A stretch of 64,000 bases of DNA from Planctomycetaceae bacterium (GCA_021732845.1 JAKFUF010000035.1:1-64000); one strand, 5' to 3'; shown: positions 23,896-48,511, numbered from the stretch's first letter. Numbers and translations are program-made. The notes: a model not told the origin generated them from the letters alone.

Positions 23896-25730
<1,835 letters not shown>

Positions 25731-25734
<4 letters not shown>

Positions 25735-26630
25735 GGATGGTTCTCCGCTTTGGGTGTCGCCTGGGTGACCACGGCCGCCGCGCGTCCGCCGGAAACTCCG
25801 TCGTCCGACTGCCGGGCCTGCAGGTCGCGCAGATATTTGTCGAATTCAGATTTGCGTTGTGCGGTCAGTTGCCCGCGCATTTTGTAATGTCCCCACCCGC
25901 ACAATTCAGCACAGACCAGTTCCTGCTCGCCTTCAAAGTTGGCCTGGAACTGGACGGGAATGATCGCCCCCGGCACTGCGTCCTGCTTGATCCGCAGATG
26001 CGGCAGGAAGAACGAATGCAGCACGTCTTCGCTGCGGAGCTGGATCACGACCGGTTCGCCAAACGGCACATGCAGGTCGTTGACCGTATACAGGTCATCC
26101 GGCTGTGGTTTCTGCATCAACTTTTTGCCTGGGGCGGGATAACGGATCCGCCACTCGAACTGCCGGGCCGTGACTTCCGCCACCGGATTCTCGCGGGAGT
26201 GCCTGTTGAATGTCGCGAAGTTGCGGAACCGCATCCACACGTCGATCTGGTACAGCGAGATGAACAGCAGGATCGCCGCGGGCACGATCGTCCAGACCAC
26301 TTCCAGCGCGTGGCTGCCGTGGCTGAAGGACGCCTTCACTCCGGGCTTGCCGCTGAACTTGATCAAGGCGGTGATCAGCACGACATGCACCGCGATGTAG
26401 GTCACGGTGGTGATGATCAGGATCATGTAGAACAGGTCATCGATCTCGGTCCCCATGGGGGACTGCGCACCACCGGGGAGCCACCAGCGGTAGGACGGCG
26501 CCAGAACGCTGATGCCCACGGTGGCCACGGCGGAAAGGCCGAAGAAAGCCGGCCAGAACTTTTTCGTCAGGGCTCCGGCAAGCAGGACTGCCGCGCTGCC
26601 CAGGGAGAGAATAATTAACCAGGGACTCAC
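25731..26630 (-). CDS. ctaC: Cytochrome c oxidase subunit II (CuA subunit)
   Basis: 299-aa subunit II. The likely start is GTG 26630, with GGAG about 8 nt upstream. Hydrophobic segments lie at the N-terminus, followed by the two usual TM helices (MILIITTVTYIAVHVVLITA and VVWTIVPAAILLFISLY). The extracytoplasmic cupredoxin domain holds the complete CuA site: the first His in VLHSFFLPHL (~205), then C240-A-E-L-C244-G-W-G-H248-Y-K-M251. The N-terminus carries two extra hydrophobic helices that look beyond the family norm. It accepts electrons from a cytochrome c or cupredoxin and passes them to subunit I. It overlaps ctaD by 4 nt. Confidence 0.94.
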
Positions 26631-26704: not shown

Positions 26705-28165
26705 TCAGTTTGAAGCCTGAGGATTCACCGGAGCCGCAGGCGGTTGCACGCTCGGATCTGGCAGCGGCCCCTGGAGGATCGACTGGTCGTAGGGCAGCGT
26801 GGTCACGAAGTTCACCAGATCCCACAGATCACTGTCATTCGTCAGCGAGGTGCTGAAGCCGGGCATCTTCGCGCCGTTGATGCCGGCGAACACCTTGCGG
26901 TACAGGTCGATCGGCCGCCGACCACCACGGTAGACGCCACGGATCAGGTTGCGGGGTTCCAGGTGATTGTCCCAGTCGTCGTGCAGGCCGCGAACTTCGT
27001 ACTTCTGCCCGGCATATTGGAACAACGGCGAGTCGTTGCCAACCTCCCAGAAATCCTCGGTGGAAGGTCCGTCGCCGCGGCCTCCGTAGCCGTGACACTT
27101 GAAACAAGCCACCGCTTGCGAGTAATACAACTCGCGTCCCCGTTTGAGTGATTTCTCGGTCGGCTTTCCGGTCTTGGGATCGATGCCTGTCCGGGCTTCG
27201 AGAGATTCGTGATGGACGAAGCCCAATTCCTCGTCCTTCAGTGACTTGACAGCCCAGTACTGGCCTTCCTTGTGGTCCAGCTTTACCCGCCGATCGGCTG
27301 GCAGAGTTTCTCCGGAGAACTTCACGCTCCCGCGGGGTTTTGGATCCGCGAGGACTTTGGCATCGTCGAGAATTGTCGCCTCGCGGGGATTGATGATGCT
27401 TTCGGGTGCGTCGGCAGTGGTCCATGCCTCCGCCAGGTCGGTGCTCACCTGTTCCAGCGTGTCCTTCCAACCATCGTTGAACTCCGCTCGGGCTTCCTCA
27501 GGAGCTTCCGCCGGCACGGACCCACCTTTTGCCAGGACCTTGCGTCCCAGGATTCCCTGGATCCCCTTGTACAGGCGGAACTCATATTCACCCCGCATGC
27601 TCAGGAACCGCACATACTCGATGATCGGCTCCAAGTCGTCTTTGAGCAGCACGAAGGACGGCATGCTGGTCCCGGGAATACCGTGTTCCAGCGTCGTCCG
27701 CAGGTCTTCCCGCGAGGGCCGGATGGCACCCGCCGTCGATTTGAACTTGAACTTTCCCAGCCGGTAGTCGCGGGGGCGCGGGTTGAGAAACTTCGCCGTG
27801 GGACCGGCACCGTCTCCGCTCGTCCCGTGGCAATGCACGCAGTGCTGCATGTACAGGTTGCGTCCGTGCAGCAGCTTCCAGCCTTCGGTGCCGCGCTCGG
27901 GATGATCGAGATCATCCTCCGCCTTGCCGTAGTCGAGCGGGAACAGTTCCCATGCCACCAGTGAGTTTGGCGTGCCGAAGTTCTCATGCAGCGCAGCTTC
28001 CACCGGGTTCACAGCGGTCTTCTCGTCGCCGATGCGCACCGGCACGATTTCTTCGGTGGACTTGGCGAGAACAAACTTCGGTTCGGGACTCTTGGCGCAC
28101 CCTCCGCAGAGAGCCACGCCGACAAGCACCGCTACCGTGCCGAAAAATTGACGAGACCGGTTCAC
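26705..28165 (-). CDS. Dihaem cytochrome c lipoprotein
   Basis: 486-aa exported protein starting at GTG 28165 (AGGT about 8 nt upstream). A lipoprotein signal ends in the lipobox VALCGGC. Two cytochrome c domains follow: CVHCH at C109 with the Met-ligand segment GTSMPSF, and CFKCH at C354 with GAKMPGF later. It is likely to carry electrons between the b/Rieske complex and the oxidase from the outer face of the membrane. It lies 75 nt upstream of subunit II. The ~170-residue linker between the two domains has no recognised fold. Confidence 0.85.
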   Translation of the reverse strand: MNRSRQFFGTVAVLVGVALCGGCAKSPEPKFVLAKSTEEIVPVRIGDEKTAVNPVEAALHENFGTPNSLVAWELFPLDYGKAEDDLDHPERGTEGWKLLHGRNLYMQHCVHCHGTSGDGAGPTAKFLNPRPRDYRLGKFKFKSTAGAIRPSREDLRTTLEHGIPGTSMPSFVLLKDDLEPIIEYVRFLSMRGEYEFRLYKGIQGILGRKVLAKGGSVPAEAPEEARAEFNDGWKDTLEQVSTDLAEAWTTADAPESIINPREATILDDAKVLADPKPRGSVKFSGETLPADRRVKLDHKEGQYWAVKSLKDEELGFVHHESLEARTGIDPKTGKPTEKSLKRGRELYYSQAVACFKCHGYGGRGDGPSTEDFWEVGNDSPLFQYAGQKYEVRGLHDDWDNHLEPRNLIRGVYRGGRRPIDLYRKVFAGINGAKMPGFSTSLTNDSDLWDLVNFVTTLPYDQSILQGPLPDPSVQPPAAPVNPQASN

Positions 28166-28274: not shown

Positions 28275-29150
28275 CTACAACCCAAACTTCTTGGAATCGA
28301 ACTTCATGTCACCCTTGGCCACCTTGCCGGCTTCGATGGTCACTTCAAATTTCTTGTTCAGATACCCAGACCGTTCCTGCCAGACGATGAATTCGTGCTT
28401 GCCGGCAGGCAGGTTGCGGATCTCGAACTCGCCCTTTTCGTCGGTGTTGTCACCGAAGGGATGGTCCTTCACCAGATGATGTGCCGTCATCCAGTTATGG
28501 AGATCGCACTTGATCGGCACCGGGTTGCGCTCGGCCTTGTTGTAGCCCTTCTTGACCCCCTTGCGGTCATTGGCACCGATGGCGACATTGAACTCTTCCG
28601 AGCGGATTGGCGTGGCATGCGTGTTGTGGGCGATGGCATCGCCGCTCTTGATCAACAGCGGCTGGCCAACCTGGATGAACAGTGTGTGCGGCGTGAACCT
28701 ACATCCATGCTGGTCAAACACGACTTCTTCAGTCGGTGGAGTGTGCTTGTAGCCAGCCGGGGCCTTGTCTAGATACACGAAGATATTGGCGATCCCCTTG
28801 GTCTTCGGGTCGATGACCAAGGTGTCGTCCGGGATATCCTGGGCCGCACAGACTGCAGGATCCTTGACGCTGCCGTCACCCTTGACGACTTTGAGCTTCA
28901 GCGTCGGGACCGCTCCGTCAAACACAATGGTCCCTTTGAGGGCCCCGGTGCCAGGCAACAGCGGCTTTTCCGCCTTGTCGTCCGCGTAGGTGATCGGCGT
29001 CTGCGCAACGGCCAGCGTCAACGCGGCATCCGCAGCGTCAGCCGATTGGCGGCTCAACACCCAGGCACCAACCACGAGGGCAGCGGCTGCCATGGAGCCG
29101 GCGACAACGTACCGCGCCGGGCGTCGAACGATTTGAGGATCGAGGGTCAT
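28275..29150 (-). CDS. Cupredoxin-like electron-transfer protein with transthyretin-type C-terminus (copy 2)
   Basis: 291-aa protein with an N-terminal TM anchor (YVVAGSMAAAALVVGAWVL). The middle carries a cupredoxin-like fold: AHNTH (H175, H178) and CDLHNWM (C215, H218, M221) match a His-Cys-His-Met type-1 copper site as in plastocyanin. After it, GEFEIRNLPAGKHEFIVW is the carboxypeptidase-regulatory/transthyretin-like domain. It is closely similar to the upstream gene, from which it is separated by 2 nt, and is clearly a tandem duplicate. Copper binding is inferred from the residues; the family is also labelled methylamine-utilisation-like. Confidence 0.72.
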   Translation of the reverse strand: MTLDPQIVRRPARYVVAGSMAAAALVVGAWVLSRQSADAADAALTLAVAQTPITYADDKAEKPLLPGTGALKGTIVFDGAVPTLKLKVVKGDGSVKDPAVCAAQDIPDDTLVIDPKTKGIANIFVYLDKAPAGYKHTPPTEEVVFDQHGCRFTPHTLFIQVGQPLLIKSGDAIAHNTHATPIRSEEFNVAIGANDRKGVKKGYNKAERNPVPIKCDLHNWMTAHHLVKDHPFGDNTDEKGEFEIRNLPAGKHEFIVWQERSGYLNKKFEVTIEAGKVAKGDMKFDSKKFGL

Positions 29151-29152
29151 GC

Positions 29153-30088
29153 CTAGTTCTCCGTAGTCAAGCTCAGAGATCCGCCTCGCAGAAGGCGCTG
29201 GTAGGTCACCATGCGGCTTGGCTCTTCGCGTGATGGCTGGGTCACGGATGCCAGTTTGTCGGCACCGTAGGACAGATCGTGGGTCACGTCTGCGTTCGCT
29301 TTGATTTCAATTTGCAGCTTCGTTTCCAGAAAGCCACGCTTTTCGTGCCACACCTTGAACTGGTGCTTGCCGACCGGCAGCCCTGGAATGCTGAATTTGC
29401 CATCCGCGTCCGTGATGGCCACATACGGATGGTCCAGCGGGACGTGGTAGGCCTTCATCCAGGTGTGAAGGTCACATTTGACCTCCACGGGCTGGGCTTC
29501 CGTCTTGTCATACTGGATTTTGACGCCCCCCCGGTCATTCGCATTGATCGCTCCGTTGAATGACTTCGAACGGCCGGGATAGGTGTGGGTATTGTGGGCG
29601 ATGGGATCGTCACTCTTGATCAGCAGCGTTTGATTCACACGCAGCTTGATCACATGCGGATGAAACCGGCAGCCCTTTTGGTCGAAGATCACGGGCTCGG
29701 TGGGGATCGCCAACAGTTCGGGCTTGATCGTCCCCGGGGACTTGGCCAGGTAGATCACGACGTTGGCGACACCCTTGTTCGCCGGATTGACCAGCAGGCT
29801 CTCGTCAGGAACTGTCTCCGCCGCGCATACCGACGCGTCGCGGGCGCCAGCATCATTTTTCTCCACGAGATTGGGCGCTGCAGGCGGCGTTCCTTCGCAG
29901 AGAATCGTCCCGTTCAAATTACCAAATTCCGTCACCGCCGCACCAGCGGCGGCACCTTCGGTTGCAGCGCCTTCGATGTGCTTCACCGTGACCGACACCA
30001 CCTGTGGCTCGCAGCCTGCCGCGGCCAACACCGCTGCCAGACCCGCCACCAAGCTTGCGGAACGCACGAAGTCGAATCGACAATTCAT
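29153..30088 (-). CDS. Cupredoxin-like lipoprotein with transthyretin-type C-terminus (copy 1)
   Basis: 311-aa lipoprotein: signal with lipobox AVLAAAGC (Cys ~26). It has the same two-part layout as its downstream neighbour: AHNTH (H165, H168), CDLHTWM (C205, H208, M211), then GKFSIPGLPVGKHQFKVWH. The ATG shares one base with the TGA of the upstream multihaem gene (TGATG), showing translational coupling. An in-frame GTG lies one codon upstream. A type-1 copper electron carrier between the multihaem complex and the oxidase is the best inference; without spectra a structural role remains possible. Confidence 0.72.
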   Translation of the reverse strand: MNCRFDFVRSASLVAGLAAVLAAAGCEPQVVSVTVKHIEGAATEGAAAGAAVTEFGNLNGTILCEGTPPAAPNLVEKNDAGARDASVCAAETVPDESLLVNPANKGVANVVIYLAKSPGTIKPELLAIPTEPVIFDQKGCRFHPHVIKLRVNQTLLIKSDDPIAHNTHTYPGRSKSFNGAINANDRGGVKIQYDKTEAQPVEVKCDLHTWMKAYHVPLDHPYVAITDADGKFSIPGLPVGKHQFKVWHEKRGFLETKLQIEIKANADVTHDLSYGADKLASVTQPSREEPSRMVTYQRLLRGGSLSLTTEN

Positions 30089-33000
30089 CACTGACCCTCT
30101 CCCGTCTTGACGTCTGCGGACTGCGTCCCGGCAGGTTTGGCCTCCGCCGCTTCCGCTTTTGGTTCTGGCTTCTCGGCGTCCGGCTTCTTCTCTGGCTGAA
30201 CTTCGGGTTTGGCTTCCGGCTGTGGCTCCACCTTCTCAGCGTCAGGTTTGGCCGGAGTTGCCTGGGCCATCACCGCCCGCTGATGTTCCATCAGTTGATG
30301 ATAATTCATCAGACCGTCGCGTGTCGCCTGAACCTGCAGGAGTTCCTGGGCGGTACCAATCCTCTCGGGTGTATTGCCTCCGAGCAGTTCCGGGAAAGTA
30401 TGCTTGTAGGTTCCGTTGGCTTGACGTTGTGCCGGCGGATACGGAGCTGGCATGGAAGTATAGGGGGTGATCCAGTCGGGCTTGGTGATCCACAGCTTCA
30501 ACCAGTCGGGTCGCAGCCGGTCGGCCACCACATCCAGATTGGGGCCGCGGATGTTTTTCGGATCGTTGGGATTGCCCGCGTACGGCTTGGCCGCCACGGC
30601 ATGACAACCGTTGCAGAGCTTGACGTTGATCGCATCCCAGGTCACATCCAGATACTGCTTCTTTTCCTCTGGCAGTTGTTCATGCAGCACCACATTCTGG
30701 CGTGCCAGATAGGTCGGCGTGCGTTCGGGAACGGATTGGTAGGGATACTCAGCCCCATCGACGGCGGCGAAGTAGTTCGCCAACGCATGAGCCTCGTCAT
30801 CGCTCATATTGAACTTGGGCATCCGCAATCGCGTTGTGAACCGGATCTGGTGCGGGTTCTTGAGGAAGTTGTAAAGCCACGCGGTCTGAACCTTGATCCC
30901 TTCCTGATACAGCGGAGGCGGCGACATCTGCCACGACATGTAGCGGTTGTTGTCGGGATTCTGCTTCATCAGCTCGTCGACCAGCCATTCCGCAAAATGG
31001 CCGCCGCGGGCCGGGGTGACGTGCTTGAGCTTGAGTGCCGAGAACGTCACCTTGGAGTGCGGCAGCAACAGCTTCTGATTGAGTTCCGTGGTCTCCCACA
31101 CATCGTAGGTGTATTCGGCGTCTTCGGGTTCATCGTCAGGCGAGGGGGCACTGAGCAGCATGCCGTGGAATGAAACATCGTGTTCGCCGGTGGCCACCCC
31201 GTGAAGCTTGTCCGGTGGAGGGGCCTTCAGCGAGACCAGCAGTTGCCCGTTTGAGAGGGCATCCGTGCTGGTGAAGTCCGCCCACCACAGTGCGTCAATC
31301 AACGCCTTGATCTTGCCCGGTTCAACGGTCTCGTTCACGAGCCGTTGATGGAGAGCGAGTACAGCAGCCGGAGAAACAGTCACTCCGGTTGCTTCCTCCT
31401 TGGAATCTGCCAGCTTCTTTGTGACTTTATCCAGAGTGGCCCCTGTCACTGACAGGAACTCCAAGTCAGTCACACCCCGCAGCACCGGCAGCAATTCGCT
31501 CTTGTTCAGCGACTCCGACAGAGACTTCCAGTCAGGCTTGTCGTCTTTCCGGTATGGGTCGGACTTCGTCCAGTCAGAGAAGGCCAGTTGCTGAATCAGC
31601 GCATCCAGTTTGGCATACAATGGGGCCTCTACTTCGTCGATGAAGCGTACACCCAGATCCTTCAGATTTGCCTGCGTGTACTTCACAAATTCCTTTGGAT
31701 CCTTAGGATAGGAGTCTGCGGTCTTCACGGTGACCGTCTCAAGCCCCTTAGGACCTTCAACTTCAGCGCCGATTTGAGAGAGGAAATTGAGCCACGACTG
31801 CTCGTCGTTAATGTCAGCCTTCACCTCACCCAGCTTGAGTTTCTTCAACACCATGCTCAGTTTTTGATACGCCTTCGAGAAGTCTGGCTTGAAGGTCATT
31901 TCAAATTCTGACCGCAGACGATCATGAAGTTTCGCCAATTCGGACTGTGTAATGACGGTCCGTGCGGTATTCCCTGGAATGGCAGCCATACGCTTCGTGA
32001 ATTCAGCCGCGTTCGAGAGCGACACCATCTCCAGGTCGCTCTCAGTGATCCCGCGTCCGACCGGCAGCACCGCCGCACTGGCGAGCTTGTCGCGCAGCAC
32101 ATTCCATTTCGCATTCGAACTCACATCGACGCGGAACTCTTCCACAGGAGTCTGGTACTGAACTTTTGGCAGTTCCAGAACGTGGCATGAGACGCAGTTG
32201 AACTTCGTCACCAGCTTCTCACCCTCAATCCGGGCTTTGGCCACGGGGTTCGGGTGATATTGGAACTCCTGTGCTGGCGGATCGGCGACCAATCCCAACA
32301 CGAAGGTCGCCACGGACTCGATCTTCTGCTCGTTGTCGAGGGGTGTCTGGGCGAACTTGAACTGCGGCATGCGCAGGCGTTCGTCGTAGCCCTTCGTCGT
32401 CGTCATTAGATAATCGTAGCTGCGCGGATCCCGCAGCTTCTGCCAAATGAAGCCCGCCCGGCCATGGTGACTCAGTTGATCGACAAAGTAAGCCGCACTG
32501 GTCGCCTTCACTTCCTCTTCCTTCGAAGCAAACTTCGCACCACGGGCCTCGTCGATCGACTTCTCGATCCGGGTCAGCGTGCTCGAACCGTCCGGTTCGC
32601 CATGGTGGTGCAGATACTCTTCGATATGTTCGACAGATAGCTTCGCCGGATCCTTCCGGCCCCAATCGGCCAGTCCCGTTCCGATCGGACGCGCCCGCTC
32701 GTACCCGGGGATGTCATGGCAGCCATAGCAGCCGTACCGGGAGATGGATCGACGACCGATGTACAGCAGTTTTGTCTCGGCGATGGCTTGATTTTTCTTT
32801 GTGGTGCTGAGTGTTCCGCTAAGTTCCTTGAACCAATCACTCTGCTGTTTCATGTTCGACTGATCGAGACGCTCCAAGATGTCCTTTCTCAGATTCTCTT
32901 GATCAGACGCCAAACGCCCAACCAACGCCTTCAGCGACAATTCTACCTCATCACCCTTAAGGTCATTTGCCGGAGTGGGGTAGACTCCCGAGCCCATGTA

Positions 33001-35256
33001 TGCGTCGAGCGCTGCCGCGGATAAGGATTTCTTGAGAAACAGCCGGACAAGGTCGTTCATATCGGCGTCAAAATTCGCCGCCTCGTTGTCGATCCCTGGG
33101 AACTTGGAAACCGGCTTGTGCAACAGGTAAGCCACGATGTCCGCGGCGGGATCCACCCGTGAGTCGCCCTCGCCGGTGGCTTCCAGGTACAGGTTCGGCA
33201 TCCGCGTCCGGGAACTGTGACGGTCTGGGTCGCGAACCCACGTGTACAGCCAGGATGACAGGGCGATCTCTTCGGTCTTCTCGCCGCTGACCATGACCTT
33301 CGTCTTCATCGCGTCGCGGCGGATTTTCGTATGAGCGTGGCTCAGATCCGGGGCAAAGTCGGCCACGGAGCCGGGGAAATCTTCATGCTTGTGGCAGGCC
33401 AGGCACCCACGTTCCGAGAACAGCTTCTTTCCGCGTTCAATGCTCGGGACATAGCCCTTCTCCCACGGGTCGATGACCATTTCTTCCGAAGCGGAATCGA
33501 GATACTTGGCGATTCCGGCGATCTCAACGGGTTGAAATTTCGCGGCGTCGGCATCCTGCTGATTGCTCAAGTGGAAGAACCGTGGCATCCGTGTTTCTGG
33601 GTGAATCTTCGTCGGATCCTTGATCCACTCTTCGGCAAAGTCGATATCAGCCTTGGAAGCGAAGTGCCGCAACCCGGGGCCGACTTTACGCATCGTTCCG
33701 GCCGTGGCGGTCGGGTCCGCCGCGATCCGAGCCGCTTCGTCCTCTGTCTGTGGCTCAAGCCGCATGTCGGGACCGATGGACACGCCGGCACTGTAGCCGT
33801 TGATTTCGTGGCATCCATAGCAGCCGTACTGCCGAATCAGGTTGTAGCCTTCGACCACTTTTGGTGCTGAGGCCCCGTAGGTCGGATTCACACCCAGCTC
33901 CACCACATTGTGGTGGCACTTGATGCAGGCGGCTTCCGCCAGCCGGTTCGGGTACATGGGGAATTCCCAATAGTGATTGGGGAACCACCCAAACTGCTTG
34001 CCCCAGGACTCCCCCTTGGCGGGATGGTTGGGCATGTGCTGAACGTTGTGGAAGCTCGTTCCAGAACCCTGCCCTTCATGGCAGGAGGTGCAGCCAAACT
34101 TCTGCATCGGGTGCGGACTGGCCGAGGTCAGGAACAGGTCGGTATTGGGATGCGTGGCGAAGGGATGCCCATAGGTCCGGTTCGGGATGGAGTAATACCG
34201 TTTGCTGGCCGCCAGTTCCGCCGCTTCGGCCTTCGCCAAATCCGTGGTCGCCTTCGCCAGTTCCTTCTCATTCTTGGATACCTCAGCCGCATCTTTCGCG
34301 GCCTTGGCTTCCTCGACTGCGGCGGTTGCTGCTTGGAGATTACGCAATGCGGTCTGCTCCGCCGCGGCATCTTTCTGCAGATATTCGTGGCCTGTGGCCA
34401 CGGTCACGCCGTGATGGTCGAAGGGATAGGCCGGAACACCGCCCGATTTGACTTTATCGATGTTCATGTGACAGGTGAGGCAGCGGTCGAACCGCGCCAC
34501 ATCACCCATGCCGCCGTAGTTGATCTTCAACTTCGGCAGCCAGATTTGCGTGGGCTTGAGATGCCCATTGAACCCCTCAATGATCGGCAGTTCCATCAGG
34601 TCCCACTTGCCGGCCGCCAGTGCTCCTTTGGGATCCACCTGCTGCCGCGCCTTGGCGAGCTGCACCGCCTTGGCCAGGTGCTTCTTCAACTCGGCGGCAA
34701 TCTCATCGCGATGCTTGGTGATCGCAGTCATCTTGGCCTTGTTGGCATCTGACTGCTGTTGCAGTTTTTGCAGTGCCAGTTCCTGCTCATCGACGGTCTT
34801 CTGACGCGTGTCAAAGTTTTCCTGTGCGGGCCGCAGCGCCTCGCCTTCAACACCAGCGCTGATTTGCAGCCCCATGTCAGCGCGGGCCTTGTCCCGCTCT
34901 GCCCGCAGGGCGCGCACCTGGCGCAGCAGCAATTCGAGCTTGCCGCCGATCTCGCGACCTTCCAGTTCGATTTCGGCAATTTGTGACGAATGGGTCTTGA
35001 TTTCGTTATCAGCGGCCTGCAGGCGAGCTTCCAACTGCTCCGTCTGCTTTGTGAAGGAGAAAGTCTCCTCGGCACGCTCATCGTCATGCAACTGCTGCGA
35101 CGCCAGCTTGAACCCAAGCCGTTGCGGAACGCGCCATTCGTCATTGTAGTCGGCGTACATCGCCCATGCGGAGGCGATGCACAACAGGACGCAACTGGCC
35201 ACGAAGAACCAGTGCATCATTCGCAGATTACGCCAGACATTTTCTGTGGCGGGCAT
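30088..35256 (-). CDS. Giant octahaem cytochrome c (1722 aa)
   Basis: ATG 35256 is chosen over the upstream TTG 35277 because GGGAAG lies about 8 nt before it. One TM helix (MHWFFVASCVLLCIASAW) anchors it near the N-terminus. A coiled-coil (~60-200) follows, and eight CXXCH haem sites lie at about C259, C389, C444, C479, C618, C843, C1021 and C1548. The spacing is very uneven: long stretches at ~850-1540 contain only one motif. The tail (last ~60 residues) is Lys/Glu/Pro/Ala-rich. It sits between subunit-IV-like and cupredoxin genes, so it probably replaces cytochrome c1/f as the electron exit of the complex. A 34.4-kb-area helical segment rich in Ala/Lys/Glu is another likely coiled coil. 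Confidence 0.88.
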   Translation of the reverse strand: MPATENVWRNLRMMHWFFVASCVLLCIASAWAMYADYNDEWRVPQRLGFKLASQQLHDDERAEETFSFTKQTEQLEARLQAADNEIKTHSSQIAEIELEGREIGGKLELLLRQVRALRAERDKARADMGLQISAGVEGEALRPAQENFDTRQKTVDEQELALQKLQQQSDANKAKMTAITKHRDEIAAELKKHLAKAVQLAKARQQVDPKGALAAGKWDLMELPIIEGFNGHLKPTQIWLPKLKINYGGMGDVARFDRCLTCHMNIDKVKSGGVPAYPFDHHGVTVATGHEYLQKDAAAEQTALRNLQAATAAVEEAKAAKDAAEVSKNEKELAKATTDLAKAEAAELAASKRYYSIPNRTYGHPFATHPNTDLFLTSASPHPMQKFGCTSCHEGQGSGTSFHNVQHMPNHPAKGESWGKQFGWFPNHYWEFPMYPNRLAEAACIKCHHNVVELGVNPTYGASAPKVVEGYNLIRQYGCYGCHEINGYSAGVSIGPDMRLEPQTEDEAARIAADPTATAGTMRKVGPGLRHFASKADIDFAEEWIKDPTKIHPETRMPRFFHLSNQQDADAAKFQPVEIAGIAKYLDSASEEMVIDPWEKGYVPSIERGKKLFSERGCLACHKHEDFPGSVADFAPDLSHAHTKIRRDAMKTKVMVSGEKTEEIALSSWLYTWVRDPDRHSSRTRMPNLYLEATGEGDSRVDPAADIVAYLLHKPVSKFPGIDNEAANFDADMNDLVRLFLKKSLSAAALDAYMGSGVYPTPANDLKGDEVELSLKALVGRLASDQENLRKDILERLDQSNMKQQSDWFKELSGTLSTTKKNQAIAETKLLYIGRRSISRYGCYGCHDIPGYERARPIGTGLADWGRKDPAKLSVEHIEEYLHHHGEPDGSSTLTRIEKSIDEARGAKFASKEEEVKATSAAYFVDQLSHHGRAGFIWQKLRDPRSYDYLMTTTKGYDERLRMPQFKFAQTPLDNEQKIESVATFVLGLVADPPAQEFQYHPNPVAKARIEGEKLVTKFNCVSCHVLELPKVQYQTPVEEFRVDVSSNAKWNVLRDKLASAAVLPVGRGITESDLEMVSLSNAAEFTKRMAAIPGNTARTVITQSELAKLHDRLRSEFEMTFKPDFSKAYQKLSMVLKKLKLGEVKADINDEQSWLNFLSQIGAEVEGPKGLETVTVKTADSYPKDPKEFVKYTQANLKDLGVRFIDEVEAPLYAKLDALIQQLAFSDWTKSDPYRKDDKPDWKSLSESLNKSELLPVLRGVTDLEFLSVTGATLDKVTKKLADSKEEATGVTVSPAAVLALHQRLVNETVEPGKIKALIDALWWADFTSTDALSNGQLLVSLKAPPPDKLHGVATGEHDVSFHGMLLSAPSPDDEPEDAEYTYDVWETTELNQKLLLPHSKVTFSALKLKHVTPARGGHFAEWLVDELMKQNPDNNRYMSWQMSPPPLYQEGIKVQTAWLYNFLKNPHQIRFTTRLRMPKFNMSDDEAHALANYFAAVDGAEYPYQSVPERTPTYLARQNVVLHEQLPEEKKQYLDVTWDAINVKLCNGCHAVAAKPYAGNPNDPKNIRGPNLDVVADRLRPDWLKLWITKPDWITPYTSMPAPYPPAQRQANGTYKHTFPELLGGNTPERIGTAQELLQVQATRDGLMNYHQLMEHQRAVMAQATPAKPDAEKVEPQPEAKPEVQPEKKPDAEKPEPKAEAAEAKPAGTQSADVKTGEGQ

Positions 35257-35348
35257 GACACTTCCCAGATAACACAATTTCGAACTGTCTCTGAACTGCC
35301 ACCTGCCACATCCGGCAGGCGACAGCCCATCCCTGACGCTCGAACGAA

Positions 35349-36683
35349 TCAGATATTAAAGAACCATTCGGGAATCGCGACCAGGTACTTGAGGTTGATG
35401 GTCCACCGCAGCAGCATCTTCAGCGGCAGGCAGGCCATCAGCAGCACCAGGTTGGCGAACACCATGTAACGCAGGAAACCCATCTTGATGAAGAACCGTC
35501 GGAACACGGTCATCGCCATCAGCGGCGGCAGCAGAAACAGGTAACCGAACACCAGAATCAAGCCGGGAGCCTCACGCAGCAGAATGTAGAGCGCCTGAGT
35601 GAGTCCGTCCGAGCCCGAGGGGGCGACCGGCATCGGCCGCTGCAGACCGTCAATCCAGAAATACTGCGACAGGTTGACGTTGTTCAACACTTCCAGCTTG
35701 TGCACATCCCACGGTTCATAGATGCCGAAGAAGTTCCAGTTTGGTCCCCGCAGGAACGTTCCCAGAATGATCAACCCAATCCACAGCGGAAGAAAACCGA
35801 AGAGGAACGTGATGACGGCGAATTTTCGCTCGTTGAAGGTGTAATACCCGTTCCCCAGCTTGTTGAAATCGATGTAGGGGAGGGCCATCAACCCCACGAG
35901 AATCACGCTCGGCAGCACCACGCCTGCCATCCACGGATCGTAGTACACCAGCATTTCCTGCAGTCCGAGGAAGTACCAGGGGGCCTTCGACGGATTGGGC
36001 GTCTTGACGGCAGAAGCTGGTTCTTCCAGCGGTGCGGGCAGAGCCACACCCCAGGCGATCAGGATCGCCGTCAGCACCACCATGCAGATCAGTTCGGTGT
36101 ACACGAGGTCGGGCCAGGTCAGCACCTTCTCATTTTCAACCTGCTCGAACAACGGCAGCCCTTTCGCCCGGCGGTCGTCATTGTCGACAGCCCGCTTGAA
36201 GTAGAGCCACGTGAAGAAGGCCACAATGAACAACATCGCCACAATGGGGACGTTGTCGGGCTTGCCAACGATCTGGCGGAAGTCGTAGTCGGTCATGCTG
36301 AGGGCGAGGAACAGCACCATCAGGTTCAGGATGACCCAGGCCACCGTGTTGTTCACGAGCCACTTGCGGGCCGCGATGATGACGACGAACAGGACAGTGG
36401 AGCCGGCAAAGTACACGATCGGATTCGCCAGCCGGTCGATCCCAGCCTTGACGACTTCCGGCATGCGAATGCTGAAATTTTGAGCCTGATCGCCACCGGC
36501 GATCTGAGCGAACGCCAGCATGCCCAGCAGGGCCGAGAAGACGGCCCAGGCACTGACAATCCGCAAGTCCGCCTTCTGTTTGCCGGCATTGGCGGCCCAG
36601 GCACCGTTCATCACGGCCAGGATCAGGTAAATCCACCCGAGGCCCTGGATGACGGACGGTGTCAGATCGGCATGGTGCGACAT
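35349..36683 (-). CDS. Cytochrome b C-terminal half (subunit-IV-like) with extra N-terminal helices
   Basis: 444-aa membrane protein, far longer than the ~160 aa of b6f subunit IV. Residues 1-~190 add several TM helices that subunit IV lacks (start LGWIYLILAVMNGAWA, VVIIAARKWLV, AWVILNLMVLFLALS). The subunit-IV-like part begins at ~190 (TWPDLVYTELICMVVLTA) and contains NPSKAPWYFLGLQEMLVYY, the quinol-oxidation-site segment: the family PEWY is APWY here, so the catalytic Glu is missing at that spot. Three or four more helices follow. It lies between the cytochrome b6-like and multihaem genes. Confidence 0.8.
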   Translation of the reverse strand: MSHHADLTPSVIQGLGWIYLILAVMNGAWAANAGKQKADLRIVSAWAVFSALLGMLAFAQIAGGDQAQNFSIRMPEVVKAGIDRLANPIVYFAGSTVLFVVIIAARKWLVNNTVAWVILNLMVLFLALSMTDYDFRQIVGKPDNVPIVAMLFIVAFFTWLYFKRAVDNDDRRAKGLPLFEQVENEKVLTWPDLVYTELICMVVLTAILIAWGVALPAPLEEPASAVKTPNPSKAPWYFLGLQEMLVYYDPWMAGVVLPSVILVGLMALPYIDFNKLGNGYYTFNERKFAVITFLFGFLPLWIGLIILGTFLRGPNWNFFGIYEPWDVHKLEVLNNVNLSQYFWIDGLQRPMPVAPSGSDGLTQALYILLREAPGLILVFGYLFLLPPLMAMTVFRRFFIKMGFLRYMVFANLVLLMACLPLKMLLRWTINLKYLVAIPEWFFNI

Positions 36684-36771: not shown

Positions 36772-37545
36772 CTACAGTGGCTGGCTGATGCCGCCGTCTT
36801 TGCGGACGCGCCAGAAGTGAATCATGATCAATCCCGCCACGACCAGCGGAATCGCCACGCAGTGCATGATGTAGAACCGGTTGAGGGTGGACTCACCCAC
36901 GAAGCGGCTTCCCAACAGGATGAAGCGGGCGTCGCTGGCATTGGTGATCAGGTCGAAGCCACCAACGTTCAGCAACTGCGCCCCGGGACCTTCGTGGCCC
37001 AGGAACGGCGTCGCACGGGCCATATTTGAACCGACGGTGATGGCCCAAATGGCCAACTGATCCCACGGCAGCAGATAGCCGGTGAACGACAGCAGCAGGG
37101 TCAGCACGAGCAGCAGCACACCGATAACCCAGTTGAACTCCCGCGGCGGTTTATAGCTGCCGGTGAGAAACACGCGGTACATGTGCAGCCACACGGAGAT
37201 CACCATCGCATGGGCACCCCAGCGATGAATTTCGCGCATCACACCAAGCGTCGTCACATCCCGGAGGGCCAGGATGTCGTTGTAGGCCCACTCCAGGGTG
37301 GGGCGATAATAGAACATCAGCAGCACGCCCGTCACCGTTTCCACCAGAAACAGGAAGAACGTAATGCCACCCATGCACCAGGTGTAGGACAGGGCAATGC
37401 CCTGCTGCTTCACGGAGACGGGGTGCAGATGCAGGAAGAAGTTGGTGAGCATCACCACCACCCGGTTCCGGCGGTCCGTGGGGGCCGGATGACGAAAGAT
37501 GCTCTTCCAGATCTGCGAGTCGCGAATGTAATCCCCGACCGACAT
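36772..37545 (-). CDS. Cytochrome b6-type subunit (N-terminal half of cytochrome b)
   Basis: 257 aa from ATG 37545, which shares its first base with the TGA of the Rieske gene. Four TM helices carry the two bis-His b haems: H107 (EIHRWG) with H121 (LHMYRV), 14 apart, and H228 (IMHC) with H243 (MIHFW), 15 apart, exactly the b6 spacing. C57 in SYTWCMGGITF lines up with Cys35 of cytochrome b6, the residue that attaches haem ci covalently in b6f. The protein therefore looks b6f-like and not bc1-like. It works with the Rieske and subunit-IV-like proteins in quinol oxidation. Confidence 0.9.
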   Translation of the reverse strand: MSVGDYIRDSQIWKSIFRHPAPTDRRNRVVVMLTNFFLHLHPVSVKQQGIALSYTWCMGGITFFLFLVETVTGVLLMFYYRPTLEWAYNDILALRDVTTLGVMREIHRWGAHAMVISVWLHMYRVFLTGSYKPPREFNWVIGVLLLVLTLLLSFTGYLLPWDQLAIWAITVGSNMARATPFLGHEGPGAQLLNVGGFDLITNASDARFILLGSRFVGESTLNRFYIMHCVAIPLVVAGLIMIHFWRVRKDGGISQPL

Positions 37546-38693
37546 CAGGCAATCTCCACGAACGAGTTCGAGTCGGTCCACTGACCCATTTCTTCCTGGA
37601 ACTTCAAACTCTTATCCACCTCGAGCATGCCATCTTCCGCGATCCGCAGACCGACGCGCTCCAGGGGACGGGGCGCTGGGCCCTCGAAGTTGACTCCAGT
37701 GATGTAGAAGCCCGAACCATGACAGGGGCATTTGAATTTCTGTTCGCCTTCGAGCCAGCTCGGCGTGCAGCCGAGGTGGGTGCAGACCGACAGCAGGGCA
37801 TAGATCATATTTTTGCCCTGATACTGATCGGTATGGACGATCCACACACCTTGCGAGGCCACAAATCGCGTGGCTACAGTCCCCAGGTCGAAGTCGTTTG
37901 GCGAACCAATCTTGAACTTGCGAGGGGGTTCCGCGAGGACATTGGGGAGCATGAAGCGCGCCACCATCAGGCTCGCCAAGCCAAGCCACGCCGTCAGCAG
38001 GGAGCTGGCGATCATAAATGGCGTCATCATGATTCCCGGCAACGCCACGGCCGTAACCATGATGGCCGCCAGCATTCCCCGGCGTTCTTCCACCTTGGCC
38101 TTTTTCGCGGGCGCCATGACCGGACGCTGCGGCATCGGCGGAACCACAACGGCTTTGACTGGAGCCGGAGCGGGGGCAGGTGCTTCAACAGGACGCACGG
38201 CGGCGAGCATTTGCTCAACCGACATGCCAGAAGTATTCACCGCAGTTTTCGCCGCGACCGGCACGGCAGCAGCGGACACGGGACTCGCCGCTGGCGCTGC
38301 GGCTGGCGCGGGGGATGCCCCGCCAGCCTTGGCGGCCCGAGCGGCCGCCAAAATATCGGCTGTTGTTTTTGGTTTTCCAGCAGGTGCTGCTGGTGATGCA
38401 GCGACCGGCGCAGAAGCGGCTGGCGCAGACGCTGCGGGAGCCGCAGACGCGCCTCCCGCCTTGGCGGCGCGGGCTGCGGCCAGAATTTCCGCAGTCGTCT
38501 TCGGCTTGGAGGCGGGGCTTGTAGGAGCCGCCGCCGGCGCAACCGGCTGCGCGGCTTCGGCGGCAGCCACGGGTGCGGCAGCTTCTGGAACAACTTCTGG
38601 CACTGCAGCGGGGGGGGCCGCGGCGGCTTTCGCCCCCGCGGCAGCGCGTGCAGCCGCCAGGATTTCGGCCGTACTCTTCTTCTGCTCAGCCAT
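37545..38693 (-). CDS. Rieske iron-sulfur protein with repetitive Ala-rich N-terminus
   Basis: 382 aa from ATG 38693 (an in-frame TTG at 38711 is less likely). The C-terminal domain holds the [2Fe-2S] motifs CTHLGC (C304, H306, C309) and CPCHGS (C322, C324, H325). A TM anchor (residues ~207-250) precedes it. The first ~200 residues are Ala/Pro-rich and contain four copies of a short helical motif, TAEILAAARAA: residues 7-18, 66-83, 110-127 and a divergent SVEQMLAAVRP at 158-168. Standard Rieske proteins have only a few residues there. With the usual topology this extension faces the cytoplasm. It is the first gene of the supercluster. Confidence 0.92.
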   Translation of the reverse strand: MAEQKKSTAEILAAARAAAGAKAAAAPPAAVPEVVPEAAAPVAAAEAAQPVAPAAAPTSPASKPKTTAEILAAARAAKAGGASAAPAASAPAASAPVAASPAAPAGKPKTTADILAAARAAKAGGASPAPAAAPAASPVSAAAVPVAAKTAVNTSGMSVEQMLAAVRPVEAPAPAPAPVKAVVVPPMPQRPVMAPAKKAKVEERRGMLAAIMVTAVALPGIMMTPFMIASSLLTAWLGLASLMVARFMLPNVLAEPPRKFKIGSPNDFDLGTVATRFVASQGVWIVHTDQYQGKNMIYALLSVCTHLGCTPSWLEGEQKFKCPCHGSGFYITGVNFEGPAPRPLERVGLRIAEDGMLEVDKSLKFQEEMGQWTDSNSFVEIA

Positions 38694-39011
38694 GGAACGC
38701 CCTGCGCTCAAACGATCAACGGGCGGACTCCGGCCCGCTTGTCACCAAGTCCGTGGGATTGTTGCAAGAACCGGGGGGAGTGACAACGGCCACCCCCTTT
38801 CGCCGGATTTTTTTTCTCAGATGCTGGAATGCACTTTTGGGCTTTCCCACTCTCCGGAAGCTGCCGTCATCTGTTTTTGCTCGGCGAAAGCGTTGTTGAT
38901 TTTGTCCGGTTGAACGGATTAAAGATCTTTCCAAGCCGGGGTGCAAAGTCGATTTACTCTTGCGGATGGGTATGCCATTCTGGGGCAGTTCCGACAAGCA
39001 ATCTTTGATGC
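38694..39011. other. Divergent intergenic region (supercluster and MFS promoters)
   Basis: 318 nt between the Rieske gene (leftwards) and the MFS gene (rightwards). It must hold both promoters. I see no gene and no convincing inverted repeat. An A/T-rich stretch around 38890-38980 is the likely promoter core, but I could not assign -35/-10 boxes. Confidence 0.4.
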
Positions 39012-40976: not shown

Positions 40977-42506
40977 TCAGTGTCCGATTGAAACGCTGCC
41001 GGTCGTGCTGGCAGCGGGCGCCAGAGCCACGGGAGTGGCCTTTGGTTTCACTGGCTTAATGGCTTTCTTGCCCGGCGTCACCTGTGGCACCGGCACTTGT
41101 TTCGGATCGCCGACGAGCGCTGTTCGTTCTCTGGTCAACTGTTTGGCCGCGTTGTAGCGCGAAACAACTCCCGGCTGCGGAAACACTCCGCCCAGCAAAA
41201 CGAGGGCGGCCAGTGTCAGCACGGCAAATCGTTCGCGGACGCCGATCTTCAGGGATATCGCGGAAACATGCCGGGTTCCGGTGAACAGTAGGAAGAACGC
41301 CTGCACCATGGCGATGCCGTTCATCGCCGAGGCCACCACCACCGCCGCGCCGATGTAAATGTAAACCTTCACGGCATCGTCGATCAGCAGCTCGGTGCCG
41401 ACAAAGCCGATGGTCAGCGGAAACCCGACGCAGGCGAGACCAGTCAGCAGGAAACAGACCGCCAAGGCCGGCGTGTTCTCATACAACCCCTGAAATTCGA
41501 CGAGCCCCAGCCGGCCTCGGCGGGCTTCCAAGGCCCGCATGGTGATGCCGAAACCGCCCAGGGAGATGCCGACCGAGAGCCACAGACTCAACGCCCCGGT
41601 CAGACCGACGAGCGACAGCATTTCCAACCCGACGAGTACCATCGACGAGTGGCTCAACAGCAGAAAACAGAAAAACCGACGTCCATCGCGCTGAACGAGG
41701 GCCATGGCTGCGGAATACGCTGCCGTGATCAGGGACATCAGCCCCATGATTCTGAGGGCGGCATCCGGAGCCACCGGCAGCACCAGCCGGACAGCGGCAT
41801 AGGCCCCGGTGATCGGCGCGAGAAACAGCAACGCCGTCCCGAATGTGGCCTTCTCAAACAGATCCGTCGTCCAGGTGTGGAACGGCAGCGTGCCGCAACG
41901 GATCAGCACGCCGAACAAAATCGGAATCACTGCCCACAACGCGTGTGGCTTGCCCCCCGTCTCGCCCTCAATGGTCACCAGCAATTGCCCGAGCACCATC
42001 AGCCCCACGGAAGTGAGCATGTAGAGCGCGTACATCCGCGTGCAGCGTTTGCGAGCCCGCAGTTCAAAAAATGGGGGCACCGTGCCCAAGGCGAGCAGGG
42101 CGATGACGAGCCACGGCTCACTGCAACTGAAGGTGGCCAGCAGCAATGCCTCGGAGAAGAGCATCCAAGAGAAGGAAAACCGGCGGACTTTCGTCCGCAT
42201 GGTGGCGATCGTCACCAGGAAGTACAGCAGGGCGACCAAAGGCAACAGCGGCGCACTGAGTTCATCAATGATGAAGATTTCCCGCCCGATCAGCTTCGCG
42301 AGAACATGCCCCGGATCATCGGCGCGGGTGGCATGCAGAATGCCAAAATCCTGCCAGGCGGACACCACGCACACGAGCGTCATCCCGCAAGCGACGAGGC
42401 TCCATTTGCGCGCCGCCAGCGGGTCCCGCAGGCAGCCGACCAGCAGCCCGCCCAACAGCGGGATGAGGATCCCCATTTCGAGCCACGGCAGGTGCAGATC
42501 GGTCAT
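40977..42506 (-). CDS. NuoM-type proton-channel subunit (DAB-like module)
   Basis: 509-aa membrane protein of the NuoL/M/N antiporter family with ~14 helices. It has an early Asp/Glu pair and the family core IRCGTLPFHTWTTDLFEKA. A Lys/Pro-rich tail of ~70 residues follows the last helix. The ATG overlaps the NuoL-like stop by 4 nt (ATGA). It has no neighbouring complex I genes, so it is part of a separate membrane module together with the NuoL-like and DabA proteins. Proton or cation flux is inferred from the family. Confidence 0.8.
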   Translation of the reverse strand: MTDLHLPWLEMGILIPLLGGLLVGCLRDPLAARKWSLVACGMTLVCVVSAWQDFGILHATRADDPGHVLAKLIGREIFIIDELSAPLLPLVALLYFLVTIATMRTKVRRFSFSWMLFSEALLLATFSCSEPWLVIALLALGTVPPFFELRARKRCTRMYALYMLTSVGLMVLGQLLVTIEGETGGKPHALWAVIPILFGVLIRCGTLPFHTWTTDLFEKATFGTALLFLAPITGAYAAVRLVLPVAPDAALRIMGLMSLITAAYSAAMALVQRDGRRFFCFLLLSHSSMVLVGLEMLSLVGLTGALSLWLSVGISLGGFGITMRALEARRGRLGLVEFQGLYENTPALAVCFLLTGLACVGFPLTIGFVGTELLIDDAVKVYIYIGAAVVVASAMNGIAMVQAFFLLFTGTRHVSAISLKIGVRERFAVLTLAALVLLGGVFPQPGVVSRYNAAKQLTRERTALVGDPKQVPVPQVTPGKKAIKPVKPKATPVALAPAASTTGSVSIGH

Positions 42507-43960
42507 ATCGATTCTTCGTAGGTGGAGGTCGGCGGCTGAATGCGCTGCGTTTGTCGGTCCGGCTCAACGGTGAGGTAGGCGGTCCATTTGCGTTCCATGG
42601 TGTCGCACCAGGTCATCACGCGGATGAATGGAACGACAATCAGGTCGCTGAGCAGGGCGTCGAGGTATCCCCGTTCGAGGGCCAGGCGGTAGAGCCACGT
42701 CCGCAGCCGTTCCGGAATCAGCCGCATCCAGAAGCTGGAGGCGTTTTGTACGCGGTCGCCCATGGCATTTTCCATGGCGCGGTAGTCCACCAGCAGGCTG
42801 GGCGCCCGCAAGAACTGCAGGGTCCGCAGGCAGCCATGACCCAGGATGTGGATCAACGCGAAGTAGTACCAGCCCATCCCAATCTCGGCGACGATGAGCC
42901 CGACCTGTGTGAGCGACGCAAAGGTCAGCGCACATTTGATGTCGGTCTGCACGCGTCCCGCAAACGCGGCGAACGCCGCGGTGACAAGACCGATTGCCAC
43001 CGTCAACCCGCCCACGACCGGCGACAGGACAATGATCGGACTGAACCGCAGCAGGAGAAACGCCCCGAGGTGGACGGAGAGCGCCCCGTAGAATACGGCG
43101 CTGGAGGGCGTGGGACCTTCCATGGCGCGGGGCAGCCACCCGGAAAACGGCACAAGGGCCGACTTGCCCGCCGCGGCAACCAGCAGCAGCGAGCCGACCA
43201 GCAGGGCTTCGTAGGATGTCAGCGGCGAGGTGCCTCCCGGCCAGTGCGTCGAGCCCAGAAAGGCTTCAAAATCGCCGAGGTGCTTGATCCTGTGCAGCAC
43301 AATCGACGCCAGCAGCAATGCGGCGTCGGAAATGCGATACACGATCCAGACCCGCAGTCCGTTCCGCACCGGGGCCGGCCGTTCGTGATAGAACGCCACA
43401 AGCAAGGCGGAAGACAGGCCCACCATCTCCCATCCGGAAAACAGCGTCTCGATGGTGCCGGCCATGGAGGTGACGACCATTCCCAATAGGAACAGGGCGT
43501 ACAGGGTGAAAAACCGGTTGAAACCCGGTTCATGGTGCATGTAGCGGTTGGCGAACGCTCCGATGGTTCCGCAGAGGACAAACGTCAGAATGACAAAGGG
43601 AACCGAGAGGCGATCGAACACGAATTGAATGTGGAAGTGGTATTCATCAGACACTGTCGCACTTTCGGCGACAGCATGCGACTCCGATCCATGTGTTGCC
43701 GCGCCGTGCCCGGCCGGAGGCAGCTCCACCCATCGGGAGAGTTCAATCGGCACATGGTGCCGGCCCAACAGGAGCATCATCGCCAGCATGACCACGGACG
43801 CGACCAGCCCGACAGTCACGGCGCACTGCACGGCCCGGCCGACCATCCGTTCGTTCAGCGGGCGGCCGAGCAGCGTCGTCAGTCCCATCACGACCATGAG
43901 CGCGGCCGGCGCGCCGACCACCACCAGGCCGAGCACGTTGAAGATCAGGTCGTAGGTCAT
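42503..43960 (-). CDS. NuoL-type proton-channel subunit, DabB-like
   Basis: 485 aa from ATG 43960 (an in-frame GTG precedes it by one codon; GGAAA lies upstream). The ~14-helix protein of the Proton_antipo_M family has FSGWEMVGLSSALLVAFY with its proton-path Glu, and AGKSALVPFSGWLPRAMEG, the conserved Lys-bearing helix. The C-terminal ~90 residues are amphipathic. DabB of inorganic-carbon transporters is of this family and always lies beside DabA. Here dabA is upstream on the same strand, across an 874-nt gap. Confidence 0.8.
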   Translation of the reverse strand: MTYDLIFNVLGLVVVGAPAALMVVMGLTTLLGRPLNERMVGRAVQCAVTVGLVASVVMLAMMLLLGRHHVPIELSRWVELPPAGHGAATHGSESHAVAESATVSDEYHFHIQFVFDRLSVPFVILTFVLCGTIGAFANRYMHHEPGFNRFFTLYALFLLGMVVTSMAGTIETLFSGWEMVGLSSALLVAFYHERPAPVRNGLRVWIVYRISDAALLLASIVLHRIKHLGDFEAFLGSTHWPGGTSPLTSYEALLVGSLLLVAAAGKSALVPFSGWLPRAMEGPTPSSAVFYGALSVHLGAFLLLRFSPIIVLSPVVGGLTVAIGLVTAAFAAFAGRVQTDIKCALTFASLTQVGLIVAEIGMGWYYFALIHILGHGCLRTLQFLRAPSLLVDYRAMENAMGDRVQNASSFWMRLIPERLRTWLYRLALERGYLDALLSDLIVVPFIRVMTWCDTMERKWTAYLTVEPDRQTQRIQPPTSTYEESI

Positions 43961-44240
43961 CACGTTTCCGACAAGTGTGGAATATCAAATCTGACGTGTC
44001 CGTCAAAAGTTCATTCGCTGGTTTCAACGCAATTTCAAATTTCAGATTTCACAGTAATATGTCTTTTGGCGACATTCAATTGGCGCGGCGATTGTCACAG
44101 TAATTGTTGCTGCGATCCTTAAGACAACTTTGACTGACCATTCTTCGTTCCCTTCGTTTCCTACTGTTCAAAATACTTCAGGTCGACACGCGGGCTACAA
44201 TGACGGTGGCTGATTTTCGACGATGTCCGGGAGAGTATCG

Positions 44241-44336
44241 CGCTTGGGACCGCATAAAGAATAAAGCACGCTTCAAGATGCTGACCGACGGCCGGTCTTA
44301 GGCAAAAAAAAGGAGAACCACGAATTTTCACGAATA
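44241..44336. repeat. 96-bp direct repeat, copy 1
   Basis: Core AAAGAATAAAGCACGCTTCA followed by a GATGCTGACCG block and ending ACCACGAATTTTCACGAATA. It matches copy 2 at 44418 with about nine mismatches in the last 81 bases and more in the first 15. The distance from one copy to the next is 177 nt. Confidence 0.7.
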
Positions 44337-44417
44337 AAGGATCGCCGCAAAAATAACTGTTCGATTTCGATTCGTTGATCCGCCAATGAGTCCGGTTTTA
44401 CGACTGCCGGAACCGGA

Positions 44418-44513
44418 CGCTAAGGACCCGACAAAGAATAAAGCACGCTTCAAGATGCTGACCGAATGCCGGCCGTAGGCAACGAAAAAGGGAACCACGA
44501 ATTCTCACGAATA
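44418..44513. repeat. 96-bp direct repeat, copy 2
   Basis: Second copy of the element at 44241, ending ACCACGAATTCTCACGAATA. Its right end runs into an 18-bp inverted repeat (44513-44530/44577-44594). Related ATTCGTG-type sequence occurs again at 61457-61550, so this is a dispersed repeat family. Confidence 0.7.
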
Positions 44514-44837
44514 CGACGAATGTCACGAATGGCAACGAGCAAGATTCCATCGCTCGCGAAGCCATGCCGGTTGACGATTCGTGAAATTCGTCGTTAATTT
44601 ATGACCGTACGATTCCCGCACCGTTTTGCCAGGCCTGTCGACTTCACCAACAAATTCATTCGTAGTCCCTGATGGCCTTCGCTGCTGGATAGGGAGTCAA
44701 TTCTCACAGTTGTTGTTGCTGCGATCCTTGGAACAAAAAGTTTTGAACAGAAGGAAACGAAGGGGGCGAAGTATGTGGGGGTCGGCGCTCTCTGCCAGGA
44801 CTTCAAACTGTCTACTGGCACCTCAAAACGGCGGCGG

Positions 44838-48038: not shown

Positions 48039-48511
48039 TGTCTGCCCAGCACTGTTGACGACCGGCACGCGGGCAGTTCCAGAGGGTGGATGTCCGATGA
48101 CGCTGGGCAAGTTGAGTTCTGGCACGATGTGAGTTACCAGAGTTCCAAGGGAGCTGGGGATACTCCCGGATGCGGGCGGGACATGCAGGATTAAAGCACA
48201 AATCTTCCGGGAGACGCAGGCTGATCCGTCCAAACCCGTGCATTCCCATGTATGGTTCTACGGGAGTGGAGGCAATTGGCCAACGCTGCAAAGATTACAA
48301 GCTGTTTATCTTCGTGCGATTTAGAAGATGGTGAGGATGAAAACGAAAATCCGCAAGTTCTGATTTTGCAAAATCGAATTCGGCGTCCACAAACTCTTGT
48401 TTCAACTACAGACGGCTGCCGGATTCGGCATCTTGGCGTCCTTTGAATTGGCTGTCTGCGGCGGTATCCTGAAAATTCTGTGTGTCAAATTTTCCCGCGA
48501 GGACAGTGACG
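48039..48511. other. Divergent intergenic region with palindromic operator-like site
   Basis: 473 nt between dabA (leftwards) and the STAND gene (rightwards). It is more AT-rich than its surroundings and holds no convincing gene. A perfect 14-bp palindrome lies at 48362-48375 and CGAATTCG directly next to it. Confidence 0.4.
48362..48375. promoter_or_regulatory. Perfect 14-bp palindrome upstream of the STAND gene
   Basis: GATTTTGCAAAATC is self-complementary over all 14 bases. It lies 137 nt before the STAND start, and overlaps CGAATTCG (48375-48382). Such a site is typical of a dimeric repressor operator; no regulator gene is adjacent, so its binder is unknown. Confidence 0.4.

Follow-up and report, generated by a model that had tools for sequence, protein, structure and literature searches.

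The window analysed here, a 64,000-nucleotide stretch of the genome of a Planctomycetaceae bacterium (GCA_021732845.1, JAKFUF010000035.1:1-64000), encodes on its minus strand a 1722-residue protein with eight CXXCH haem motifs (the octahaem protein), which is very probably the c-type subunit of a b6f-like quinol:acceptor oxidoreductase, replacing cytochrome c1 or f and homologous to Kustd1485 of Kuenenia stuttgartiensis. A first-pass annotation, made from the sequence alone, had proposed that it stands in for c1 or f as the electron exit of a Rieske/cytochrome b complex. That proposal has gained strong support, and on comparative grounds we consider the role well supported, because of the gene order, the co-occurrence with a b6-type cytochrome b, the absence of c1 and f, and the homology with Kustd1485.

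Linkage to Rieske and cytochrome b genes

Directly upstream of the octahaem gene lie genes for subunit IV, a b6-type cytochrome b and a Rieske protein (Table 1), and the order Rieske-b6-subunit IV-octahaem proved fixed in the comparison with other planctomycetes that the first-pass annotation had suggested. Among loci for which 4.2 kb or more of upstream sequence was available, in three sets, all three genes immediately preceded the octahaem gene in 30/32, 55/56 and 17/20; the two exceptions in the first set are 5-haem proteins of another kind. Across 59 related genomes, octahaem homologues were present in 35 (E<1e-20), exactly the 35 that carry the b6-type cytochrome b (E<1e-100), and the other 24 had neither. 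The core is of the b6f type, with b6 and subunit IV as separate genes; the haem-cN cysteine C69 is found in 111 of 117 cytochrome b sequences, and the Rieske cluster residues are kept in all 112 Rieske sequences.

Two further features of this core were conserved. Residues 234-237 of subunit IV read APWY, not PEWY, in 122/123 sequences, Kuenenia included. His62 of Kustd1481 has been proposed, from AlphaFold3 modelling, as a ligand of an additional b-haem in the dimer interface of cytochrome b (PMC12954380); its equivalent, H51, is kept in 115 of 117 relatives, including the window, which has no NAD(P) reductase gene, and its conservation there bears on the role proposed for the interface b-haem.

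The first-pass annotation saw no c1 or f gene in the cluster, and this extends to the whole genome: cytochrome c1 (PF02167) had no match anywhere in it and no such domain in the octahaem protein, and cytochrome f (PF16639) had no match across the 59 genomes, this one included. Matches to PF02167 in relatives were rejected as spurious, being haem-motif matches of ~30 residues within long open-reading frames.

A separate c1/f-type gene, which the first-pass annotation had named as grounds for abandoning its proposal, was thus not found in that form, but a second complete Rieske/b complex exists whose own cytochrome b carries a fused dihaem domain as the c part. It lies on contig C222 (locus L155), consists of a Rieske protein and a 653-residue fused cytochrome b, and resembles the description of Kuste3096-3097. 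Contig C6 (locus L156) carries a probable alternative complex III cluster (a 5-haem protein, a 1088-residue protein and NrfD) adjoining a haem-copper oxidase, and a third COX1 is present on contig C88.

Haem motifs and candidate ligands

The open-reading frame spans 30088-35277, and the methionine at 35256 (MPATENVW...) is the conserved start of the family, giving 1722 residues; we number from the TTG at 35277 as residue 1, so that the count of the first-pass annotation is 7 less. When 73 complete homologues from GTDB were aligned with the window protein (n=74), all eight CXXCH motifs proved invariant and are therefore not chance occurrences. Beyond these motifs, H376, H389, H414, M564, M693, M970 and M1486 are conserved in 74/74 and M1609 in 72/74. 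The candidate distal ligands, three His and five Met, are thus as many as the haems, and haems 1-3 would therefore be bis-His and haems 4-8 His/Met. In our reading, the haem-binding part begins with a bis-His module of three haems and continues with five class-I (His/Met) cytochrome domains; the pairing of ligands with haems is proposed from the alignment.

An octahaem cytochrome c of the HAO type, mostly bis-His and in one compact domain, was considered and ruled out, since five of the eight candidate distal ligands are methionines in class-I domains; class-I cytochromes among the matches listed for the family profile against the PDB likewise count against it. One of these matches, weak at 3e-4, was the cytochrome c of a hyperthermophilic complex III (6kls_C). 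Pfam recognised clearly only the haem-5 domain (PF00034, 2.9e-13, residues 613-696). A PDB search with the single octahaem sequence returned no match, and neither did PADLOC.

The remaining anatomy was as the first-pass annotation described, with one N-terminal transmembrane helix (the only hydrophobic segment by hydropathy), a long coiled coil and a Lys/Glu/Pro tail, whose residues 1675-1729 contain 18% P, 18% A, 18% E and 16% K. The AlphaFold model of a 1173-residue homologue (L068) has a mean pLDDT (predicted local distance difference test score) of 83.7 and a pTM (predicted template modelling score) of 0.78; in it the transmembrane helix is followed by helices at 40-66, 69-88, 90-137 and 142-217, the last two being 48 and 76 residues long. 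Foldseek gave nothing at E<=1e-3 for the full homologue model, coiled coils topping the list, or for the C-terminal half of the window protein, where the weak cytochrome matches were to class-I SoxX and SorU.

The very uneven spacing of the motifs, already seen in the first pass, is due to insertions between a CXXCH and its methionine. The gaps between motifs 2 and 5 (55/35/139) are almost fixed in homologues of 1190-1300 residues, whereas motif 7 to motif 8 covers ~250 residues in short homologues and 527 here. The biggest insert, residues 1053-1341, lies between the haem-7 CXXCH and its methionine and is nearly absent in relatives (occupancy mostly 3-20%); it contains an internal duplication of ~80 residues (alignment score 86 versus a maximum of 46 in 500 shuffles) and is modelled without a confident fold (pLDDT mostly 30-50). 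Residues 1358-1421 form a beta-rich subdomain, mostly confident in the window model and recurring in the homologue model, while occupancy over residues 295-354, between haems 1 and 2, is 5-14%. About residues 850-1540 (first-pass numbering) do contain a single haem motif, but the large novel domains of unknown fold expected there gave way to two class-I domains split by inserts, namely the family-conserved beta-rich subdomain and the species-specific duplicated insert.

Relationship to Kustd1485 and other known systems

The Rieske protein of one locus in our set (L189) is identical over 117/117 residues to PDB 9rk3, which is Kustd1480 of Kuenenia, and we therefore take the 956-residue octahaem open-reading frame of that locus as Kustd1485; it matches the window protein at E=2e-38. 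Kustd1485 has been described among the multihaem cytochromes that substitute for cytochrome f, in its case in the Rieske/b complex Kustd1480-1485 of K. stuttgartiensis (PMC12954380). The two systems share the order Rieske, cytochrome b6, subunit IV and octahaem protein, all eight CXXCH motifs in order with the same three His and five Met, and an N-terminal transmembrane helix with long helices. Identity is 30-33% over the two best aligned haem regions of the octahaem proteins, 57% for cytochrome b and 44% for subunit IV. They differ in length, Kustd1485 having ~946 residues against 1722, and in the operon: in the anammox locus further coding sequence separates cytochrome b from subunit IV (a 567-residue gene in L189), whereas the two window genes are adjacent, and the window cluster, unlike Kustd1480-1485, goes on to encode two cupredoxins, a dihaem lipoprotein and the subunits of an aa3-type oxidase. 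The extra anammox genes have been read as an NAD(P) oxidoreductase (PMC12954380). Kuste4573, the multihaem c of the Kuste4569-4574 complex, also replaces cytochrome f and has its transmembrane helix in the same place (PMC12954380), a likeness to the window protein by description and not by sequence.

With cytochromes c1 and f themselves the octahaem protein shares its gene position and, we infer, the task of accepting the electron from the Rieske protein. Its class-I domains have the general cytochrome c fold, but c1 and f carry one haem rather than eight, and their anchor helix is C-terminal where that of the octahaem protein is N-terminal. QcrC, the dihaem cytochrome cc of actinobacterial bcc complexes, is likewise a multihaem c1 replacement that works with an aa3 oxidase; its NCBIfam match to the octahaem protein was weak and below cut-off (4e-6), and it has only two haems, with neither the bis-His module nor the coiled coil.

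The window protein is a fast-evolving, giant member of a large Kustd1485 family. Scanning genome contigs with the single sequence found no relatives, whereas an alignment-based scan of GTDB gave 546 candidate stretches encoding relatives, of which the best 80 were analysed. These relatives occur in Isosphaeraceae (Paludisphaera, Singulisphaera, Aquisphaera), Pirellulales, Gemmataceae, several Acidobacteria and one Omnitrophica metagenome-assembled genome. Weak matches in one family (f5; loci L057 and L058) were dropped as 5-haem proteins with no Rieske neighbours where these were read. One locus (L067, G015:C83, 6299-8746) holds a second Rieske/b6/subunit IV cluster with an 818-residue octahaem paralogue that has lost the haem-8 methionine. 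In the literature covered, with subscription papers lying outside it, we found no account of an octahaem subunit in aerobic planctomycetes, and priority is not established.

Downstream genes and a possible route to the oxidase

Downstream of the octahaem gene follow two cupredoxins, a dihaem lipoprotein, COX2, COX1, CtaA, CtaB, COX3 and oxidase subunit IV. Pfam labels the two cupredoxins as carboxypeptidase-regulatory-like only; H166, C206, H209 and M212 are kept in 138-141 of 142 family sequences, the C-x2-H-x2-M loop is as in amicyanin, and the family profile matches a blue-copper protein in the PDB at 1.8e-4. The two proteins (28275-30091) are candidate electron carriers from the octahaem protein to CuA, the ligands of which are complete in COX2 in 59/59. 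In the three sets of loci, where enough downstream DNA was available, cox1 lay downstream in 20/28, 27/46 and 4/15, and the dihaem lipoprotein gene in 21/28, 25/46 and 2/15.

In the mechanism we propose, the N-terminal transmembrane helix would anchor the octahaem protein, and the coiled coil and the three-haem bis-His module, near the membrane, would receive the high-potential electron that the mobile Rieske head delivers. The five His/Met class-I domains would then form an electron wire leading, most probably, to the cupredoxin lipoprotein and/or the dihaem lipoprotein and on to CuA of the adjoining aa3-type oxidase. This onward route seems reasonably probable to us; we infer which haem faces the Rieske head, the order of the haems, the ligand pairings and the physical assembly. 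Far more tentatively, the cluster might encode a III-IV supercomplex that is obligate and needs no diffusible cytochrome c, in which a b6f-like quinol oxidase passes electrons along an octahaem wire of ~1700 residues, lengthened by the coiled coil, and on through lipid-anchored cupredoxin and dihaem cytochrome directly to CuA. On this reading the interface b-haem proposed for anammox complexes, because H51 is kept without the reductase, would be a family-wide feature rather than a mark of NAD(P)H production.

Alternative explanations

Eight haems exceed the needs of a c1/f substitute, the large low-complexity and coiled-coil parts could make contacts of another kind, and the oxidase genes do not always adjoin; on these grounds the octahaem protein might be an independent multihaem enzyme, or an extracellular or periplasmic conduit, merely co-transcribed with the b/Rieske genes. 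We consider this very unlikely, as its presence and absence match those of the b6-type cytochrome b perfectly in the 59 genomes, the gene order is fixed at phylum scale, its three His and five Met equal the number of haems, so that none is obviously left open for catalysis, and the anammox counterpart is regarded as part of its complex. If anything still less probable is that the true c1-like subunit at the Rieske head is the dihaem lipoprotein, which does have two class-I haems with conserved ligands, a lipobox and a place in the same cluster, leaving the octahaem protein as a scaffold or side branch: its gene is missing in many loci that keep Rieske-b6-subunit IV-octahaem, where the octahaem gene is essentially always there, and it is the multihaem protein that substitutes for f in the anammox locus.

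Several points nevertheless weigh against the octahaem protein as the c-type exit subunit of this complex. The same genome has other routes, in the fused bc complex (C222) and the alternative complex III-like cluster by an oxidase (C6). An adjoining oxidase is common without being universal, which leaves room for variation in the downstream partner. The case for this organism and its aerobic relatives is genomic and not biochemical, and the AlphaFold models are haem-free and give no haem-haem or Rieske-haem distances.

Features of the window

Table 1. Positions of the octahaem gene, its parts and its neighbours, counted from the first letter of the window
Feature	Position	Strand	Details and basis
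Octahaem c-type cytochrome subunit (putative)	30088..35256	minus	1722 aa, ATG start 35256
N-terminal transmembrane helix	35152..35211	minus	about residues 23-42, within a hydrophobic segment of about 18-43 (hydropathy); helix 11-37 in homologue model
Long helical coiled-coil region	34633..35094	minus	residues ~62-215; homologue L068 model and composition
Haem 1 CLTCH (266), bis-His module	34468..34482	minus	invariant 74/74
Ala-rich insert, haem 1 to haem 2 (residues 295-360)	34198..34395	minus	absent from most homologues
Haem 2 CTSCH (396), bis-His module	34078..34092	minus	invariant 74/74
Candidate distal His around haem 2	H376 34150-34152; H389 34111-34113; H414 34036-34038	minus	invariant 74/74
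Haem 3 CIKCH (451), bis-His module	33913..33927	minus	invariant 74/74
Haem 4 CYGCH (486), class-I domain	33808..33822	minus	candidate Met ligand M564, 33586-33588
Haem 5 CLACH (625), class-I domain	33391..33405	minus	candidate Met ligand M693, 33199-33201
Haem 6 CYGCH (850), class-I domain	32716..32730	minus	candidate Met ligand M970, 32368-32370
Haem 7 CVSCH (1028), split class-I domain	32182..32196	minus	candidate Met ligand M1486, 30820-30822, 458 residues on
Lineage-specific insert (residues 1053-1341)	31255..32121	minus	biggest, ~290 aa; internal duplication; low-confidence model
Conserved beta-rich subdomain in haem-7 domain (residues 1358-1421)	31015..31206	minus	strands in both models
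Haem 8 CNGCH (1555), class-I domain	30601..30615	minus	candidate Met ligand M1609, 30451-30453
Low-complexity Lys/Glu/Pro/Ala C-terminal tail	30091..30255	minus	composition
Rieske iron-sulphur protein	37545..38711	minus	long Ala/Pro N-terminal extension; CTHLGC/CPCHGSG; PF00355 6.2e-9
Cytochrome b6-like subunit	36772..37581	minus	haem-cN Cys C69; H51 = Kustd1481 His62 equivalent
Subunit IV (PetD)-like, N-terminal extension	35349..36683	minus	Qo motif APWY instead of PEWY
Cupredoxin lipoprotein with CarboxypepD_reg domain	29153..30091	minus	type-1 Cu ligands H166, C206, H209, M212
Second cupredoxin, same family	28275..29150	minus	Pfam, ligand conservation
Dihaem cytochrome c lipoprotein	26705..28165	minus	two class-I haems, conserved ligands, lipobox
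COX2	25731..26630	minus	complete CuA set H205, C240, E242, C244, H248, M251; Pfam and ligands
COX1 (haem-copper oxidase)	23896..25734	minus	domain match

Adjoining the respiratory cluster, positions 40977-48233 (minus strand) encode a DabA-like inorganic carbon transporter (1131 residues) and two NDH/Mrp-type membrane proteins, likely a DAB-type bicarbonate uptake cluster.

Implications

The replacement of cytochrome f by an octahaem protein is already known, the family having been described so far only from anammox bacteria, where it has been discussed as a peculiarity tied to NAD(P)H generation. What is new here is the aerobic wiring, with cupredoxin lipoprotein, dihaem lipoprotein and CuA oxidase in one cluster and the anammox NAD(P) reductase gene absent, together with a family-defining set of candidate ligands and the breadth of the family across Planctomycetota and Acidobacteria. 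An octahaem subunit with the same motifs and candidate ligands is thus found in many mostly non-anammox planctomycetes, often beside an oxygen-reducing oxidase, which allows the function of the extra haems to be tested in aerobic relatives in culture (Paludisphaera, Singulisphaera, Aquisphaera) and offers a concrete model of complex III for a planctomycete in which annotation finds neither c1 nor f.

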